From Gillisia limnaea DSM 15749 (lineage in GTDB: Bacteria; Bacteroidota; Bacteroidia; Flavobacteriales; Flavobacteriaceae): a stretch of 64,000 nucleotides of DNA. The number at the start of each line of letters is the position of its first letter. Position 1 is the first letter of the stretch. Positions 48,570 to 53,436 of this stretch are shown here, one piece after another. The DNA is taken from positions 1,903,448-1,967,447 of the forward strand of contig NZ_JH594606.1 of NCBI RefSeq assembly GCF_000243235.1. The letters run 5' to 3'. The position numbers and the translations under genes were made by a program. The notes beneath the pieces were generated by a model, which saw only the letters and a list, made by a program, of their open reading frames with translations, did no database searches and was not told the origin of the DNA.

Positions 48570-49907
48570 TTAGAATTTGAAGCTGAAACCAGAATAAACC
48601 CCAAAGAAATAAGGATTTACATTGCTCGTGTTTCCATTGAAAGCATTCATTTGGTATTTGAATATGGGTTCAAGATTCAATTCAAATTTTGAAGAAATAT
48701 TATAGTCAAATCCTAACCCAATATTTGTCGTAAAACTCAAATTATTAAGATTGTTTGACGCTCCAAGATTGGTGGAAAAGTCTGCAGAATTAAGTGAGAT
48801 CATATTCCTGTCCAGGAAAAGCGTACTACCCCCTCCAATAATATTGACACCTATTTTCTTATCAATAATCACATATTCAATTTCCAAAGGAACTTCAATA
48901 AAACCTATTTGCTGATTTAAATAACCTACTGTTGGAGAAGCCAGGCTTGCCCGGTTAAATTCTGCAGAAGCACTAACATTGCTAAATGGACGCCCCATGG
49001 TATTCTCGATTCGGAAATTTGGGATTTTATCACCATAATTAATCCCGCTTAAGGCAACTGGATTAACTGTCGCTGTAAACGCGACGTTGTTAGTGTTATA
49101 ACTCATATCCACCTTGCTTATACCGGTACGAATCTTAATTTTTTCTGAAATTTGATAAGCAAAATTTATTCCGTAGGAAAGTGTGATCTCACTGCTGTTT
49201 TCATTATTAGCAAAACGTTGATCTATTGCATTGCCGCTTCCCATATTATTATAGTAAATAGGTGCGGCCATGGTAGAAACCCTTAATTTTTTTGAGGCAC
49301 TGGATTTTTCGCTAAGTTGGGACTCCTCATCTTTTGTACTAATGTTTGCAATTGGAAGATCACGTAGTGGTCTTGTTGAGGTTTCCTCTACTTCTCCTAT
49401 CGCAACTTCAGCTTTTAAAACTTCAAAATCAGAAAATGTATATGCCTCATTTTCCAAATTAACAGAAGCGGTTGTAGTTTTTATACTTCCAAAGGTTCTT
49501 TCATTATTGTTTTTCTCACTTCTAAAAAATGCTGCCTGCGCTTCGATGGCCTCCCTGTTTTGGGTATTCTGTCTCAATGCCTGAAGTATTGTGGAAGATC
49601 GGATCATATTTTCGGTATAAGCCTGAGACGCCAGACTTACCTCAATAAAATTTTCATCCATAACAGCTGAAGCTGTTTGGGATCCATGAGGAGTATTGGT
49701 TTTGAACAATCCGTTGGTGTAACTTATAAACAATGCGAGCACAGCTGCTACTCCGGCCATTCTATACCAAAGAGGCAAAACGCTTTTTTTACGTTTCTTT
49801 TGCTGTAATCTGGTGGAAATATTCTTCCAGACTTCTTCTCGCGGACTAGCCTCGAAATCCTTGAATTTTTCCTGATATAATCTGTCTATATGCTTCTTTT
49901 CTTCCAT
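48570..49907 (-). CDS. Membrane protein with anti-sigma-like N terminus and beta-barrel-like C terminus
   Basis: 445 residues. The cytoplasmic N terminus (residues 1-43, KFKDFEASPREEVWKNIS) is followed by one membrane helix (about 44-64). The C-terminal half is rich in alternating aromatic/Gly strands ending GVYSGFSFKF with a terminal Phe, like an outer-membrane beta-barrel of the porin type. It lies 2 bp after the ECF sigma gene, the position of anti-sigma factors. If both readings hold, one chain would span both membranes, which is unusual. Confidence 0.65.
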   Translation of the reverse strand: MEEKKHIDRLYQEKFKDFEASPREEVWKNISTRLQQKKRKKSVLPLWYRMAGVAAVLALFISYTNGLFKTNTPHGSQTASAVMDENFIEVSLASQAYTENMIRSSTILQALRQNTQNREAIEAQAAFFRSEKNNNERTFGSIKTTTASVNLENEAYTFSDFEVLKAEVAIGEVEETSTRPLRDLPIANISTKDEESQLSEKSSASKKLRVSTMAAPIYYNNMGSGNAIDQRFANNENSSEITLSYGINFAYQISEKIKIRTGISKVDMSYNTNNVAFTATVNPVALSGINYGDKIPNFRIENTMGRPFSNVSASAEFNRASLASPTVGYLNQQIGFIEVPLEIEYVIIDKKIGVNIIGGGSTLFLDRNMISLNSADFSTNLGASNNLNNLSFTTNIGLGFDYNISSKFELNLEPIFKYQMNAFNGNTSNVNPYFFGVYSGFSFKF

Positions 49908-49909
49908 TA

Positions 49910-50452
49910 CTATGATGAATACACGGCCAGTTTTTCCTGGCTGGCTTCAATTTTTTCTTTTAATATAATTCGGGCTCTGGCCAAATTGGATTTGGAAGTG
50001 CCTATTGTAATTTGAAGCATTTCTGAAATTTCCTTATGAGAAAATCCATCTAATGCATACAAATTAAAAACCTGTCGGTATCTGTCCGGCAATGCGTGGA
50101 TTATCTCCAGTAAATAATCGATGGACACCTCTTCCTCATCGATTTCAAGAGCAGGCTCTTTGAGCTGTTCTTCATTAACCAGTTCAAAAACAGTTTGTTT
50201 CCTGTATTTCTGAAGGGCGGTATTGATCACTATTCGTTTCATCCAACCTTCAAAAGAACCTTTGTCCTGATATTGTAAAATTTTATCAAATATCGTCATA
50301 AAACCATCCTGCAGATTGTCTTCAGCCTGCTGGTAGCTATTAGAATATTTTAGACAAACCGCAAATAATTTGTTGGCATATAGCCTATACAATTGCTCCT
50401 GTGCTCTTATATCCTGTTTCTTACAATTATGTATGAGCTGATTTAAACTCAA
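49910..50452 (-). CDS. ECF-type RNA polymerase sigma factor
   Basis: 180 residues. Region 2 (AEDNLQDGFMTIFDKILQYQ) and region 4 helix-turn-helix (LPDRYRQVFNLYALDGFSHKEISEMLQITIGTSKSNLARA read in parts) are clear; no region 3. Alternative sigma factor for stress or envelope functions. Followed 2 bp later by the membrane partner gene. Confidence 0.92.
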   Translation of the reverse strand: MSLNQLIHNCKKQDIRAQEQLYRLYANKLFAVCLKYSNSYQQAEDNLQDGFMTIFDKILQYQDKGSFEGWMKRIVINTALQKYRKQTVFELVNEEQLKEPALEIDEEEVSIDYLLEIIHALPDRYRQVFNLYALDGFSHKEISEMLQITIGTSKSNLARARIILKEKIEASQEKLAVYSS

Positions 50453-50477: not shown

Positions 50478-50900
50478 CTACATTCCTGGACGGGTTACGG
50501 GGACTTCTACGGTTAAAAACTGAACCTCTCCTGCTGCATTTTCACCCTGCCAGAATTTAAAGATATAAAAATCATCCCTATCTGCAACAAAATTTAATTT
50601 TGTGCTCGTATTTAAATTTCCTGTGCTCTCACATGTCGTATTGCTTGTGCGATAACTTGTTACTACACCTACAGTTATTATATTAGTGTTTTTTGAGATA
50701 TCAAATCCTGAAAAAAAGTCACAGGTGCTTGGGCGCTTATAATTGATTTTAATCTCATATTCCCTGTTATATTCAAAACTCTCGGGTAATTCTACTGTTG
50801 TTATAACCGCCAGATTCTGCATCATTCCGCCGTTGTCTTCATCGCTGGAGCAGGCAGTCATTATTGCTGAATAAAATAATAGCAGTAATAATTTTTTCAT
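50478..50900 (-). CDS. Small lipoprotein, unknown
   Basis: 140 residues. Signal peptide with Cys17 in MTACSSDEDN. Mature part has a beta-strand-rich look (YEIKINYKRPSTCDFFSGF, LNFVADRDDFYIFKFWQG) with three more cysteines. I recognise no family. It is upstream of the ECF gene (25 bp), so they may be co-transcribed. Confidence 0.75.
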   Translation of the reverse strand: MKKLLLLLFYSAIMTACSSDEDNGGMMQNLAVITTVELPESFEYNREYEIKINYKRPSTCDFFSGFDISKNTNIITVGVVTSYRTSNTTCESTGNLNTSTKLNFVADRDDFYIFKFWQGENAAGEVQFLTVEVPVTRPGM

Positions 50901-50974
50901 CTGAAAAATTAACTAAATAAGTAGGTTACACTTATCAGATGCAAATAATGTTAAAGGGTTGCGTGGATAAAAAA

Positions 50975-51020: not shown

Positions 51021-52034
51021 TTATTCGTTGGCGATCTTAATCGCGGCCTTGATTTTTTCTTCAAGTTCCTCCATAAGCTCTGGATTATCTTTGAGAACAG
51101 CTTTTACTGCATCCCGACCCTGGCCTAATTTAGTGTCTTCATAGCTAAACCATGAGCCACTTTTCTTAATGATTTCATAATCTACGCCTATATCTATTAT
51201 CTCACCAATTTTGGAAATTCCTTCCCCGTACATAATATCAAATTCTGCGGTTCTAAATGGCGGAGCAACTTTATTTTTTACGACTTTTACTTTCGTCTTA
51301 TTCCCCAAAACATTGCTGTTTGCATCTTTTATTTGAGTTGATCTTCTTATATCAAGCCTTACTGATGCATAAAATTTAAGTGCATTTCCACCGGTGGTTG
51401 TTTCCGGATTACCAAACATAACACCTATTTTTTCTCTAAGTTGATTGATGAAAATCACGGTACAATGGGTTTTGCTAATACTGGCGGTCAATTTTCTTAA
51501 AGCCTGAGACATAAGTCGTGCATGAAGTCCCATTTTTGAATCTCCCATTTCTCCTTCAATTTCACTTTTAGGAGTAAGAGCGGCAACAGAATCTATTACA
51601 ATTATATCAATAGCTCCGGATCTAATCAAATTATCGGTTATTTCCAAAGCTTGTTCCCCGTTATCGGGTTGAGAGATAATCAGGTTTTCAAGATCTATTC
51701 CAAGGCTTTCAGCATAAAAACGGTCAAATGCATGTTCTGCATCAATAAATGCAGCAATTCCACCCGCTTTTTGTGCTTCGGCGATGGCATGTAAAGTCAA
51801 AGTTGTTTTCCCCGAAGATTCCGGTCCATAGATCTCAATAACTCTTCCGCGCGGATATCCACCTACGCCCAAAGCCAAATTTAAACCTAAAGATCCTGTT
51901 GAAATCGCTTCCCCTTCATAAATGGGCTGATCGCTCATCTTCATTACGGTCCCTTTTCCGTAAGTTTTATCCATTTTATCAAGGGTAAGCTTTAGCGCTT
52001 TTAATTTAGCTTCTTTTTCTTTTTCGTCGACCAT
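51021..52034 (-). CDS. recA: Recombinase RecA
   Basis: 337 residues. Strand exchange and SOS activation. Walker [10 protein letters not shown] (70-78), [17 protein letters not shown] and [30 protein letters not shown] in parts, both signature segments. Length normal. It is transcribed alone in a 370-nt divergent gap with trhO. Confidence 0.99.
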
Positions 52035-52153
52035 AATATTTTTTATCTATTTTTTTAAATGCGTGCAGCTAAAATACTATAAGTTTTGATTCGCTACAAT
52101 TTAACACGCAACCTTTTGTAAATGTTTGCATCTTATTCTAAAGAAGCAGTATT

Positions 52154-52246
52154 ATGAGGTTTCTTAAAATCAGTTTAATTTTGAATCGATTTGGCGCTGC
52201 CACTACAATTTTGTTGAGTTGTAGTAGCAGGGTTGATGGTGGCTAA
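52154..52246 (+). CDS. 30-codon ORF in the recA-trhO gap (leader peptide or micro-lipopeptide)
   Basis: ATG AGG TTT begins a 30-residue frame, first half MRFLKISLILNRFG, second half AATTILLSCSSRVDGG, stop TAA. The C-terminal half has a lipobox-like LLSC followed by only SSRVDGG. The 3' half is occupied by hairpin 52197-52230 and the stop codon sits in a long-range stem, and a strong terminator follows 58 nt later. Either a regulatory leader peptide with stalling codons or a tiny exported lipopeptide. No ribosome-binding site is obvious (upstream AAAGAAGCAGT). Confidence 0.45.
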   Translation: MRFLKISLILNRFGAATTILLSCSSRVDGG

Positions 52247-52300
52247 CGTTATTTGTTTTTTTATGATAGTAAGTAAAAAATAATAATAACGAATTAGCCA
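52197..52300 (+). ncRNA. Structured RNA element with competing hairpins
   Basis: Hairpin I: CTGC plus ACTACAA (52197-52208) pairs with TTGTAGT plus GCAG (52219-52230), one C-A mismatch, 10-nt loop. Hairpin II: TGGCTAA/CGTTAT (52240-52252) pairs with ATAACG (52286-52291) and TTAGCCA (52294-52300) with a two-base bulge. GCCAC at 52199 can alternatively pair with GTGGC at 52239, which would break both. No known riboswitch consensus was recognised. Confidence 0.5.
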
Positions 52301-52303
52301 TTC

Positions 52304-52341
52304 AAAAAAATGCCCTGGGAAGGAATCTCAGGGCATTTTTT
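52304..52341 (+). terminator. Terminator after the 30-codon ORF
   Basis: AAAAAAA-TGCCCTGGGA, loop AGGAA, TCTCAGGGCA-TTTTTT: a 16-bp stem with a T-run, a textbook rho-independent terminator. It ends 21 nt before the trhO -7 element, so the upstream element can be an independent transcript. Confidence 0.9.
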
Positions 52342-52361
52342 CGTTCCTGCCCGAAATGGAT

Positions 52362-52369
52362 TACATTTG
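52362..52369 (+). promoter_or_regulatory. -7 promoter element of trhO
   Basis: TACATTTG, 35 nt upstream of the trhO ATG and downstream of the terminator, so trhO can be expressed independently. Confidence 0.5.
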
Positions 52370-52404
52370 CAAAAATTTTTCTTTTAACTTAAAATTGGTA
52401 TAGC

Positions 52405-53436
52405 ATGCAACTGTACAATAAATTAAGCGCAAAAGAAAGAGCAGCCCTTATTGAACAAGCAGGTGAACACCGCTTAACTCTTTCTTTTTATGCCTACGCC
52501 AAAATTGGGAATCCAAAATTATTCAGGAACTATTTATTCCTTGCCTGGGATTCCATGGAAGTTCTGGGAAGGATTTATGTTGCCCAGGAGGGTATAAATG
52601 CGCAACTTTCACTTCCAGCCAAAAAATTTGATGAATTCAAAAGCTTTTTAGACAGCATTTATTTCTTAAAAGATGTACGGTTGAACATTGCCATTGAGCA
52701 TGACCTCAAATCATTTTTAAAACTAAAGGTGAAAGTACGTGATAAAATAGTTGCCGACGGCCTCAATGATGCAACCTTTGACGTAAGAAATATAGGGGTG
52801 CATGTAGATGCGCTAAAATTTAATGCGTTGATGGAGGACCCCAATACGGTATTGGTCGATATGCGCAATCATTATGAGAGTGAGATCGGGCATTTTAAAG
52901 GTGCTGTCACCCCCGATGTTGATACTTTTAGGGATTCCCTGGATATTATTGAGGAAGATTTGAAGGAACACAAGGAAGATAAGAATCTTCTCATGTATTG
53001 TACCGGGGGAATACGTTGTGAAAAAGCGAGTGCATATTACAAGCATAAGGGATTTAAAAATGTATTTCAGCTGGAAGGTGGAATTATTGAATATGCACGG
53101 CAGGTGGAAAATTTAGAGGTGGAGAATAAATTCGTTGGAAAAAATTTTGTCTTTGACCACAGGCGCAGTGAACGAATTACAGATGAGGTGATCTCAAATT
53201 GCCATCAATGCGGAAAACCATGTGATTCGCATGTAAATTGCGATAATGAAGCCTGTCATTTACTTTTCATTCAGTGTGAAGAATGTGCCAAAGCGATGAA
53301 TAATTGTTGCTCAACAGCGTGTAAAGAAATAACGGCTTTGCCCTATGAGGAACAAAAAGCACTCCGAAAAGGAATTCCAAACAGCAATAAAATTTTCAAA
53401 AAAGGGAGATCTTCGGTATTAAAATTCAAACATTAG
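52405..53436 (+). CDS. trhO: tRNA uridine-34 hydroxylase TrhO (rhodanese-family)
   Basis: 343 residues. Prephenate-independent oxygen-dependent hydroxylation of wobble uridine (ho5U). N-terminal domain, then rhodanese domain with active Cys199 in MYCTGGIRCEKAS, and a C-terminal cysteine cluster (CHQCGKPCDSHVNC, CEECAKAMNNCC) as in TrhO/YceA. Single gene with its own -7 element. Confidence 0.9.
   Translation: MQLYNKLSAKERAALIEQAGEHRLTLSFYAYAKIGNPKLFRNYLFLAWDSMEVLGRIYVAQEGINAQLSLPAKKFDEFKSFLDSIYFLKDVRLNIAIEHDLKSFLKLKVKVRDKIVADGLNDATFDVRNIGVHVDALKFNALMEDPNTVLVDMRNHYESEIGHFKGAVTPDVDTFRDSLDIIEEDLKEHKEDKNLLMYCTGGIRCEKASAYYKHKGFKNVFQLEGGIIEYARQVENLEVENKFVGKNFVFDHRRSERITDEVISNCHQCGKPCDSHVNCDNEACHLLFIQCEECAKAMNNCCSTACKEITALPYEEQKALRKGIPNSNKIFKKGRSSVLKFKH

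Follow-up and report, generated by a model that had tools for sequence, protein, structure and literature searches.

A candidate peptide-coding RNA with an ECF-type promoter next to flavobacterial recA and its predicted pairing with SusC leaders

In Gillisia limnaea DSM 15749, whose flavobacterial genome of 3.97 Mb is assembled in two contigs, the divergent genes recA (minus strand) and trhO (plus strand) are separated by 370 nt, to which a small structured element is confined. We analysed it within a stretch of 64,000 nt, hereafter the window (NCBI RefSeq assembly GCF_000243235.1, contig NZ_JH594606.1, positions 1,903,448 to 1,967,447 of the forward strand), in which the gap occupies positions 52035 to 52404; G and L numbers are our labels for genomes and loci. 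We propose that the element is probably a peptide-coding RNA gene driven by an extracytoplasmic function (ECF) sigma factor, the transcript of which would pair with the leaders of SusC mRNAs. A preliminary description, made from the sequence alone, had left its role between a leader-peptide attenuator, a small regulatory RNA (sRNA) and a gene for a tiny processed lipopeptide. The comparative evidence presented here supports the sRNA, with a coded peptide in addition, and brings in three features beyond that description: an ECF-type promoter, a paired sigma-factor operon and complementarity to SusC leaders.

Organization and conserved structure of the element

Judged from its sequence, the element looks like an independent gene of about 200 nt that comprises a promoter, an open reading frame (ORF), two helices and a terminator, all on the plus strand. 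The ECF-type promoter GCAACC-N14-GCATCT (exact match, 52108..52133) precedes the ATG-initiated 30-codon ORF MRFLKISLILNRFGAATTILLSCSSRVDGG (52154..52246, stop codon TAA), the 3′ half of which contains hairpin P1 (52191..52236). The 5′ strand of P2, GGCTAACGTTATT (52241..52253), consists of the final Gly codon, the stop codon and 7 nt beyond it; P2 is a 13-bp stem with a 2-nt bulge, and its 3′ strand is AATAACGAATTAGCC (52285..52299). This 3′ strand overlaps the proposed trans-acting seed GAATTAGCCAT (52291..52301), which is complementary to SusC leaders, and an intrinsic terminator follows (52304..52341), giving a span of roughly 200 nt from promoter to terminator. Beyond it lies the −7 box TACATTTG of trhO's own promoter (52362..52369, plus strand), which is kept as TAnnTTTG in the genus wherever trhO follows, as well as in L016, where the element is lost; it agrees with the −7 consensus given in PMC9723704. 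The frame, the hairpin in its 3′ half, the 13-bp stem including the stop codon, the terminator and the separate −7 element of trhO had all been pointed out in the preliminary description and were all recovered, and its view of the unit as independent fits the presence of a promoter, a terminator and a separate −7 box for trhO.

Both P1 and P2 are part of the minimum-energy fold of positions 52130-52345 (z = −7.9), and none of 200 shuffled sequences was as stable; the same held when the terminator was left out (z = −5.9, 0 of 200 shuffles). The terminator itself was seen in this fold only, a simple hairpin scan with loops of 3-8 nt skipping its longer loop, and compensatory changes within it were noticed by eye in the genus alignment. 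Among the 13 aligned genus sequences, 97.1% of the cells of P1 are paired and 6 of its 16 pairs show changes on both sides. The whole structure reached a covariation score of 0.307. For shuffled alignments the score was 0.165, none of 500 reaching the real value, and it did not exceed 0.085 when the structure was slid along the alignment; sliding favours the true position, this alignment being the one that had yielded the structure. A further pairing that would break both helices (GCCAC with GTGGC), also proposed from the sequence alone, is available in the window; in L003-L005, which have a GGA codon there, it is lost, as judged by eye for this one pairing. No Rfam family matched the window at its gathering score, just as no known riboswitch or leader had been recognized in the preliminary description, and the five matches obtained at E≤1 for positions 52020-52420 were all far under their gathering scores.

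The two strands of P2 behave differently. The 3′ strand is identical in all 13 aligned genus members while its 5′ partner varies in length and sequence, and it therefore seems to be held by more than P2. Across the wider collection described below, matched P2 strands form a duplex of −14.5 kcal/mol, against a minimum of −12.7 kcal/mol among 5000 permutations (134 of 135 members, relatedness uncontrolled; L313, which lacks TTAG, was left out). The motif TTAGYC is kept in nearly all of the 134 members despite variable third bases of the Gly codons and variable stop codons, and TTAG mostly lies 37-55 nt 3′ of the stop codon.

Distribution and coding character of the frame

A DNA match to the element was found in 15 of 16 genomes of the genus, the genome of the window included. 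Two of these match beyond the ORF only, G015 over 39 nt and G012 at the end of a contig that starts inside the region, and 13 can be aligned through the element. The 30-codon frame is intact in 12 of the 13, and in all 13 it is free of insertions and deletions, although these are found immediately 5′ of the ATG and 3′ of the stop codon. The exception is G007 (L010), a single draft genome with a stop at codon 5 in an otherwise intact frame and an intact seed, which reflects either decay or a sequencing error. The frame and both stems are kept in aligned members of the genus, and the element recurs in many relatives.

The G. limnaea genome itself gave one DNA match and one peptide match. A profile built from 12 genus peptides matched, at E≤0.01, 21 of the 299 genomes of the family that were searched (six rows, L027, L030, L035, L036, L038 and L040, were dropped by eye), and an enlarged profile of 24 peptides retrieved 85 of 397 genomes, just four of which had a second match, a weak one. 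At the order level, 11 of 296 genomes matched at E≤0.01, of which three lie outside family f1 and match in part only; no convincing element was found outside the family among these 296 genomes, although first-pass scores limited the candidates and absence is unproven. A pattern scan added 80 loci from Mesoflavibacter, Lacinutrix, Olleya, Psychroserpens, Bizionia, Mangrovimonas, Gelidibacter, Xanthomarina, Tamlana, Flavivirga and others. We thus collected 163 members (83 plus the 80 found by pattern), which fell to 135 distinct ones upon removal of 28 duplicates; from the enlarged profile search we left out 15 rows that were weak or partial, as well as two strong matches (G375 and G246), and the short side matches L017 and L018 were dropped as they look like chance AT-rich or terminator matches.

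The peptide is 30 aa long in 116 of the 135 distinct members and ends in (D/E)GG in 133, a tail that is partly ascertained, the scan pattern requiring CK[AT]DG and the profile matches also leaning towards it. Outside the pattern search, the (D/E)GG end is found in 80 of 82 distinct members and in 11 of the 13 genus members found by DNA. The 135 frames stop with TAA (87), TAG (45) or TGA (3), and third bases of the Gly codons vary. Among the 13 DNA-found genus members, the ratio of nonsynonymous to synonymous change (dN/dS-like) is 0.32 (78 pairs, not independent), 44% of substitutions fall at codon position 3, and 49% of single-base codon changes are synonymous against 23% expected; the ratio is 0.29 for all 30-aa members (1497 pairs of 75-99% identity, not independent) and 0.48 on codons 2-20 alone. 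By these comparative measures the ORF is a coding frame under purifying selection, and because selection is seen both in the DNA-found members and on codons 2-20, it does not depend on the ascertained tail.

The predicted peptide is basic, with a mean net charge of about +3, has a moderately hydrophobic middle and gave nothing significant in searches of NCBIfam and Pfam. The LLSC stretch previously likened to a lipobox is present in the window's peptide and is not general: although 125 of 134 peptides contain Cys, a lipobox-like motif occurs in only 6 of the 134 full peptides, and 6 of the 12 aligned genus peptides (L006, L007, L009, L011, L013 and L014) have no Cys. A separate segment, TGCTATGAA, precedes or starts the ORF in 72 of the 135 members, none of them among the aligned genus sequences, and is possibly a second functional segment.

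An ECF-type promoter shared with a sigma-factor operon

The window contains exactly two exact GCAACC-N14-GCATCT sites. One is the promoter of the element; the other, on the minus strand at 50937..50962, lies before an operon that begins with a lipoprotein-like gene and continues with an ECF sigma factor gene (49910..50452, minus strand; NCBIfam sigma70-ECF, 83.7 bits for a cut-off of 42.9; Pfam Sigma70_r2 and r4_2). A promoter common to the operon of an ECF factor is the usual sign of autoregulation. As the promoter motif is shared by the element and the sigma factor's own operon, the element is likely a member of the regulon of its neighbour. The arrangement extends well beyond the genus: GCAACC-N14-[GA][CT]ATCT lies within 300 nt 5′ of the ORF in 129 of the 135 distinct members, and a far-side copy of the promoter, 1000-1500 nt 5′ of the ORF across recA, was found in 74 of the 80 pattern-found loci.

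Exact matches to the longer motif CGCAACC-N14-GCATCT occur in 26 of 27 genomes (none in G302) at 0 to 12 sites each, and a reversed control gave none. Eight of the twelve sites of G139 belong to one recurring sequence, CGCAACCGTGTTTCCTCTTGGGCATCT, which fits the promoter pattern and is apparently a repeat dispersed in that genome. By eye, at least 8 of 87 promoter sites lie just 5′ of SusC genes (two in G000 and others in G001, G004, G006, G009, G015 and G020). Among them are two sites of the G. limnaea genome (1501-1526 in both L044 and L045; C2:946386 and C2:1413725), where the ECF-type promoter of a SusC gene is followed by the leader box described below. A single sigma factor may thus drive both a SusC transporter and the RNA predicted to pair with its message.

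Complementarity to SusC/RagA leaders

The 3′ strand of P2 is complementary to a box, GRCTAAYTC, that lies 15-23 nt before the AUG in the leaders of mRNAs for SusC/RagA proteins, TonB-linked nutrient transporters of the outer membrane. In G. limnaea, the leaders behind the two promoter sites before SusC/RagA genes carry either GGCTAATTC or GACTAATTC, 15-23 nt before the ATG, and GGCTAATTC, which a third SusC gene of this genome also carries, is the reverse complement of the invariant 3′ strand of the element. The G. limnaea seed forms 10-11 bp with its own leaders L147 and L217, at −15.2 and −16.0 kcal/mol. A variant of the box, RRCTAAYTC, was seen 15-23 nt before the ATG of SusC genes whose products are of the MKxKxxxILTL type (L147-L176, L207-L246 and L327-L355). 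One SusC-like gene of G. limnaea (C2:738132-741213; L060, L064) has an in-frame TAA stop and is probably broken.

For a wider comparison we took 68 leaders from 26 genomes that bear the element, and 2 more from G015; of the 68, 51 passed the box filter and 17 were dropped. Matched seeds and leaders formed duplexes of −13.4 kcal/mol on average, against −11.2 kcal/mol over all pairs, a matched mean reached by none of 20,000 label permutations (51 leaders, relatedness uncontrolled). Seeds with TTAGCC mostly occur with GGCTAA leaders and those with TTAGTC with GACTAA leaders: in 50 leaders, the seed pyrimidine and the leader purine stand as C-G 16 times, C-A twice, T-A 29 times and T-G 3 times. 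The base that follows TTAGYC fits the most frequent leader base of its genome in 18 of 18 scorable genomes, with 3 changes each on the recA tree, although in only 35 of 52 single leaders is it a Watson-Crick match. Two unusual seeds, GGTTTAGTCAG of G302 and GAATTAGCTA of G111, each have a fully matching leader (CTGACTAAATC and TAGCTAATTC, respectively). Finally, the best-pairing 18 nt of the transcript overlap the 3′ strand for 45 of 55 SusC-class leaders, and at the 78 positions that discriminate between the two strands of P2, 63 leader letters agree with the complement of the 3′ strand, 7 with the identity of the 5′ strand and 8 with neither.

Several observations weigh against pairing in trans. 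On the recA tree, the seed pyrimidine changes twice and the leader three times, leaving only two independent pairs, both of which agree; a phylogenetic sign test on the co-change of seed and leader was not significant and lacked power. With the seed change of G302 included, about six co-changes are available in all, which is suggestive, not decisive. Seeds and leaders are shared among relatives, and the permutations of both the cis and the trans duplexes leave relatedness uncontrolled. Pairing is also uneven within genomes. The G. limnaea leader L174, which carries GACTAATTC, pairs at −8.2 kcal/mol with its own seed and better with 17 of 25 foreign seeds, the second leader of G111 (L158) pairs at a poor −4.7 kcal/mol, and in G020, G044 and G124 the pairing with some leaders is partly G-U. 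The intact seed of G007 behind an early stop speaks against translation gating in that genome.

Also adverse is the occurrence of the leader box where no ORF was found. By eye, the box is present in 11 of 15 sampled genomes of this kind; G015 lost the element, with trhO and its −7 box retained, and still has GGCTAATTC leaders; and TAGCTAATTC, found only in G111 among element-bearers, recurs in the ORF-less G016 and G033. An antisense element beside recA would be predicted for box-bearing ORF-less genomes and was mostly not found in 28 recA loci (29 genomes searched, one without a match). In two genomes a related form turned up: G188, previously a weak profile match, has an element with a TTG-start frame, and G024 has a decayed ORF with ACGAGTTAGGCTA before the terminator, one mismatch by eye from the complement of its own leader TAGACTAACTC. 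Nine of the 28 loci (L366, L368, L370, L373, L375, L376, L378, L380 and L381) keep, by eye, a GCAACC-N14-GCATCT-like promoter divergent from recA together with a short stretch that resembles a terminated RNA; six of the nine (G016, G021, G023, G026, G033 and G047) contain TGCTATGAA. In four of the nine (G026, G032, G033 and G047), ACTAACTC follows the recA-side promoter in the leader sense. Because both the box and leader-sense copies of it occur without the ORF, the box would have some other or older role. The leader-sense copies suggest an older RNA gene at this locus, driven by an ECF factor, with the form that has an ORF and an antisense strand as one of its versions.

Alternative explanations

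These leader-sense copies also speak for reading the element as a protein- or RNA-binding decoy, in which the stop-codon strand, itself similar to GRCTAAYTC, would imitate SusC leaders and titrate whatever factor reads the leader box, the 3′ strand merely closing the decoy. The resemblance of the 5′ strand of P2 to the box fits such a role, as does the box that outlives the element, but the leaders track the complement of the 3′ strand far more often than the 5′ strand (63 against 7 of 78 positions) and in G302 and G111 the unusual seed is the complement of a leader and not a copy of it, so that we regard a decoy as unlikely. It is likewise improbable that the peptide alone, a small membrane-active or sigma-pathway product, is what is conserved, with helices that stabilize or time its mRNA and a match to SusC leaders that is a by-product of relatedness. 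Coding selection, the mean net charge of +3, the moderately hydrophobic middle and the small number of independent seed-leader co-changes could all be accommodated in that way. Left unexplained would be a 3′ strand that is constant in the genus though its P2 partner varies, a TTAGYC kept in nearly all of the 134 members while Gly third bases and stop codons vary, the unusual seed-leader matches and the covariation of P1.

Regulation of trhO by attenuation, in which translation of the small ORF would decide whether P2 forms or transcription continues past the terminator into trhO, is suggested by the succession of ORF, stop-codon helix and terminator and by the codirectional trhO downstream in most pattern-found loci. 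We consider it very unlikely: trhO has its TAnnTTTG box 3′ of the terminator, kept also in the element-less L016; the element stays beside recA where trhO does not directly follow (L008 and L014); and inspection by eye, in place of a systematic search, showed no conserved pairing of P2 with the terminator. An attenuator would precede a promoterless gene, and as trhO keeps its −7 box with or without the element, this option is disfavoured on sequence grounds. The processed lipopeptide, to which only the LLSC of the window's peptide lends itself, is hardly credible and was rejected, the lipobox Cys not being conserved (lipobox-like motif in 6 of 134 peptides, no Cys in 6 of 12 genus peptides).

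A model for the action of the RNA

We therefore return to an ECF-driven RNA that probably pairs with SusC leaders. ECF factors are generally linked to envelope stress, and an active sigma factor would lead to synthesis of the RNA of about 200 nt. Its 3′ strand would pair some 15-25 nt 5′ of the start codons of SusC genes, close to the presumed transcript start, where pairing would most likely block binding of the 30S subunit and lower transporter synthesis; whether the outcome of the pairing would indeed be repression of SusC we judge to be evenly balanced on the sequences at hand. The seed would be hidden in P2 by default, because P2 (−14.5 kcal/mol) is about as stable as the trans duplex (−13.4 kcal/mol) and is intramolecular.

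A terminating ribosome occupies the stop codon and flanking bases. The strand of P2 that covers the seed runs from the final Gly codon through the stop codon to a few bases beyond, and for this reason P2 would be opened, and the seed released, by a ribosome that finishes the small ORF. We put forward such gating by translation tentatively, as less likely than not. Its strictest form, a translation-gated sRNA in which only a ribosome at, or stalled on, the conserved DGG-stop opens the seed, is likewise less likely than not; the nascent peptide, with a basic start and a mildly hydrophobic middle, would in that case be the sensor of when the RNA made under ECF stress silences outer-membrane transporters. 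If the overall reading is true, a single helix joins a conserved peptide to a base-pairing RNA, and the proposed opening of the seed by the ribosome is directly testable.

Gene neighbourhood

The gene between the two promoters, recA (51021..52034, minus strand; Pfam RecA, E = 7e-138), is present in 79 of the 80 pattern-found loci. Past it on the minus strand lie the first gene of the sigma operon, the 140-aa lipoprotein-like ORF (50478..50900; no Pfam family, similar protein in 76 of 80 loci), the sigma factor gene and a 445-aa ORF of no assigned family (48570..49907, minus strand; no Pfam family, similar sequence in 76 of 80 loci), a probable anti-sigma or membrane protein to judge from its position. 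The sigma factor and the lipoprotein were found in 76 of the 80 pattern-found loci, and the order sigma operon, recA, element is kept in 76. On the other side, trhO lies outside the element (52405..53436, plus strand; Pfam UPF0176_N, Rhodanese and Rhodanese_C) and is codirectional at no more than 700 nt in 77 of the 80 loci.

In L014 (G009), L381 (G026) and L378 (G047), the gene after the recA-side RNA resembles TrhP, not TrhO, and is presumably a U32-peptidase-type TrhP; TrhP and TrhO are responsible for the same modification of tRNA. TrhP-like genes were matched in 16 of the 80 pattern-found loci. The promoter region of recA (52060-52110, minus strand) is strongly conserved in the genus, with CGTGCTGCTAAAATA and an ACACGC counterpart, possibly a damage-response or recA operator.

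Comparison with known systems

Flavobacteria have many TonB-linked SusC transporters, and the element would bear on their adjustment after transcription. In the open full-text literature, subscription journals and preprints lying outside the search, we found no account of a conserved peptide-coding ECF-type RNA with a seed locked by its stop codon. In enterobacteria, RybB and MicA are non-coding, Hfq-dependent sRNAs that are made under sigma-E and repress porins. Like them, the element would be transcribed by an ECF-type sigma factor and act on proteins of the outer membrane, and it differs in coding for a peptide.

The closest parallel for the target is the FopS family of Bacteroides thetaiotaomicron, bile-salt-induced sRNAs that pair near the translation start of mRNAs for SusC homologues and repress their translation, hindering 30S binding in the case of susC BT_3983 (PMC11697453). 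Pairing with the translation-start region of SusC genes is predicted for the element, with complementarity kept across genomes. As described in PMC11697453, FopS exists in 14 copies of about 65-70 nt with canonical sigma-ABfr promoters, a 5′ seed and RbpB as partner, small ORFs having been excluded by its authors, whereas the element was found in one copy of about 200 nt with a coded peptide, an ECF-type promoter and a seed held in a stop-codon helix. Since two of the features given for FopS, the lack of a small ORF and the multicopy form of about 65-70 nt, are not found here, the element is not a member of FopS as there described.

One RNA can combine a short coding frame, of 29 aa in VcdRP, with a segment for base pairing, as in the dual-function sRNAs VcdRP of Vibrio cholerae (PMC8672173) and SR1 of Bacillus subtilis (PMC8501984), which belong to other phyla and whose brief descriptions do not include a stop codon as the strand that hides the seed. 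The element would be a candidate of this kind, both translation of its frame and pairing with mRNAs in trans being predicted from sequence comparison. Nearer in kinship, Rfp18 and Rfp11 are conserved structured sRNAs of Flavobacterium psychrophilum, the promoter of Rfp11 being ECF-type (SM6); Rfp18, compared by description only, differs in its metalloprotease and adhesin targets, with no ORF mentioned in that description (PMC9723704). Against these known kinds, SusC-targeting sRNAs such as FopS and dual-function sRNAs, the element appears to combine a peptide, an ECF-type promoter and a seed locked by the stop codon, and it would, if our reading is true, be a flavobacterial counterpart of the sigma-E sRNAs and of the FopS of Bacteroides in a mostly marine clade.
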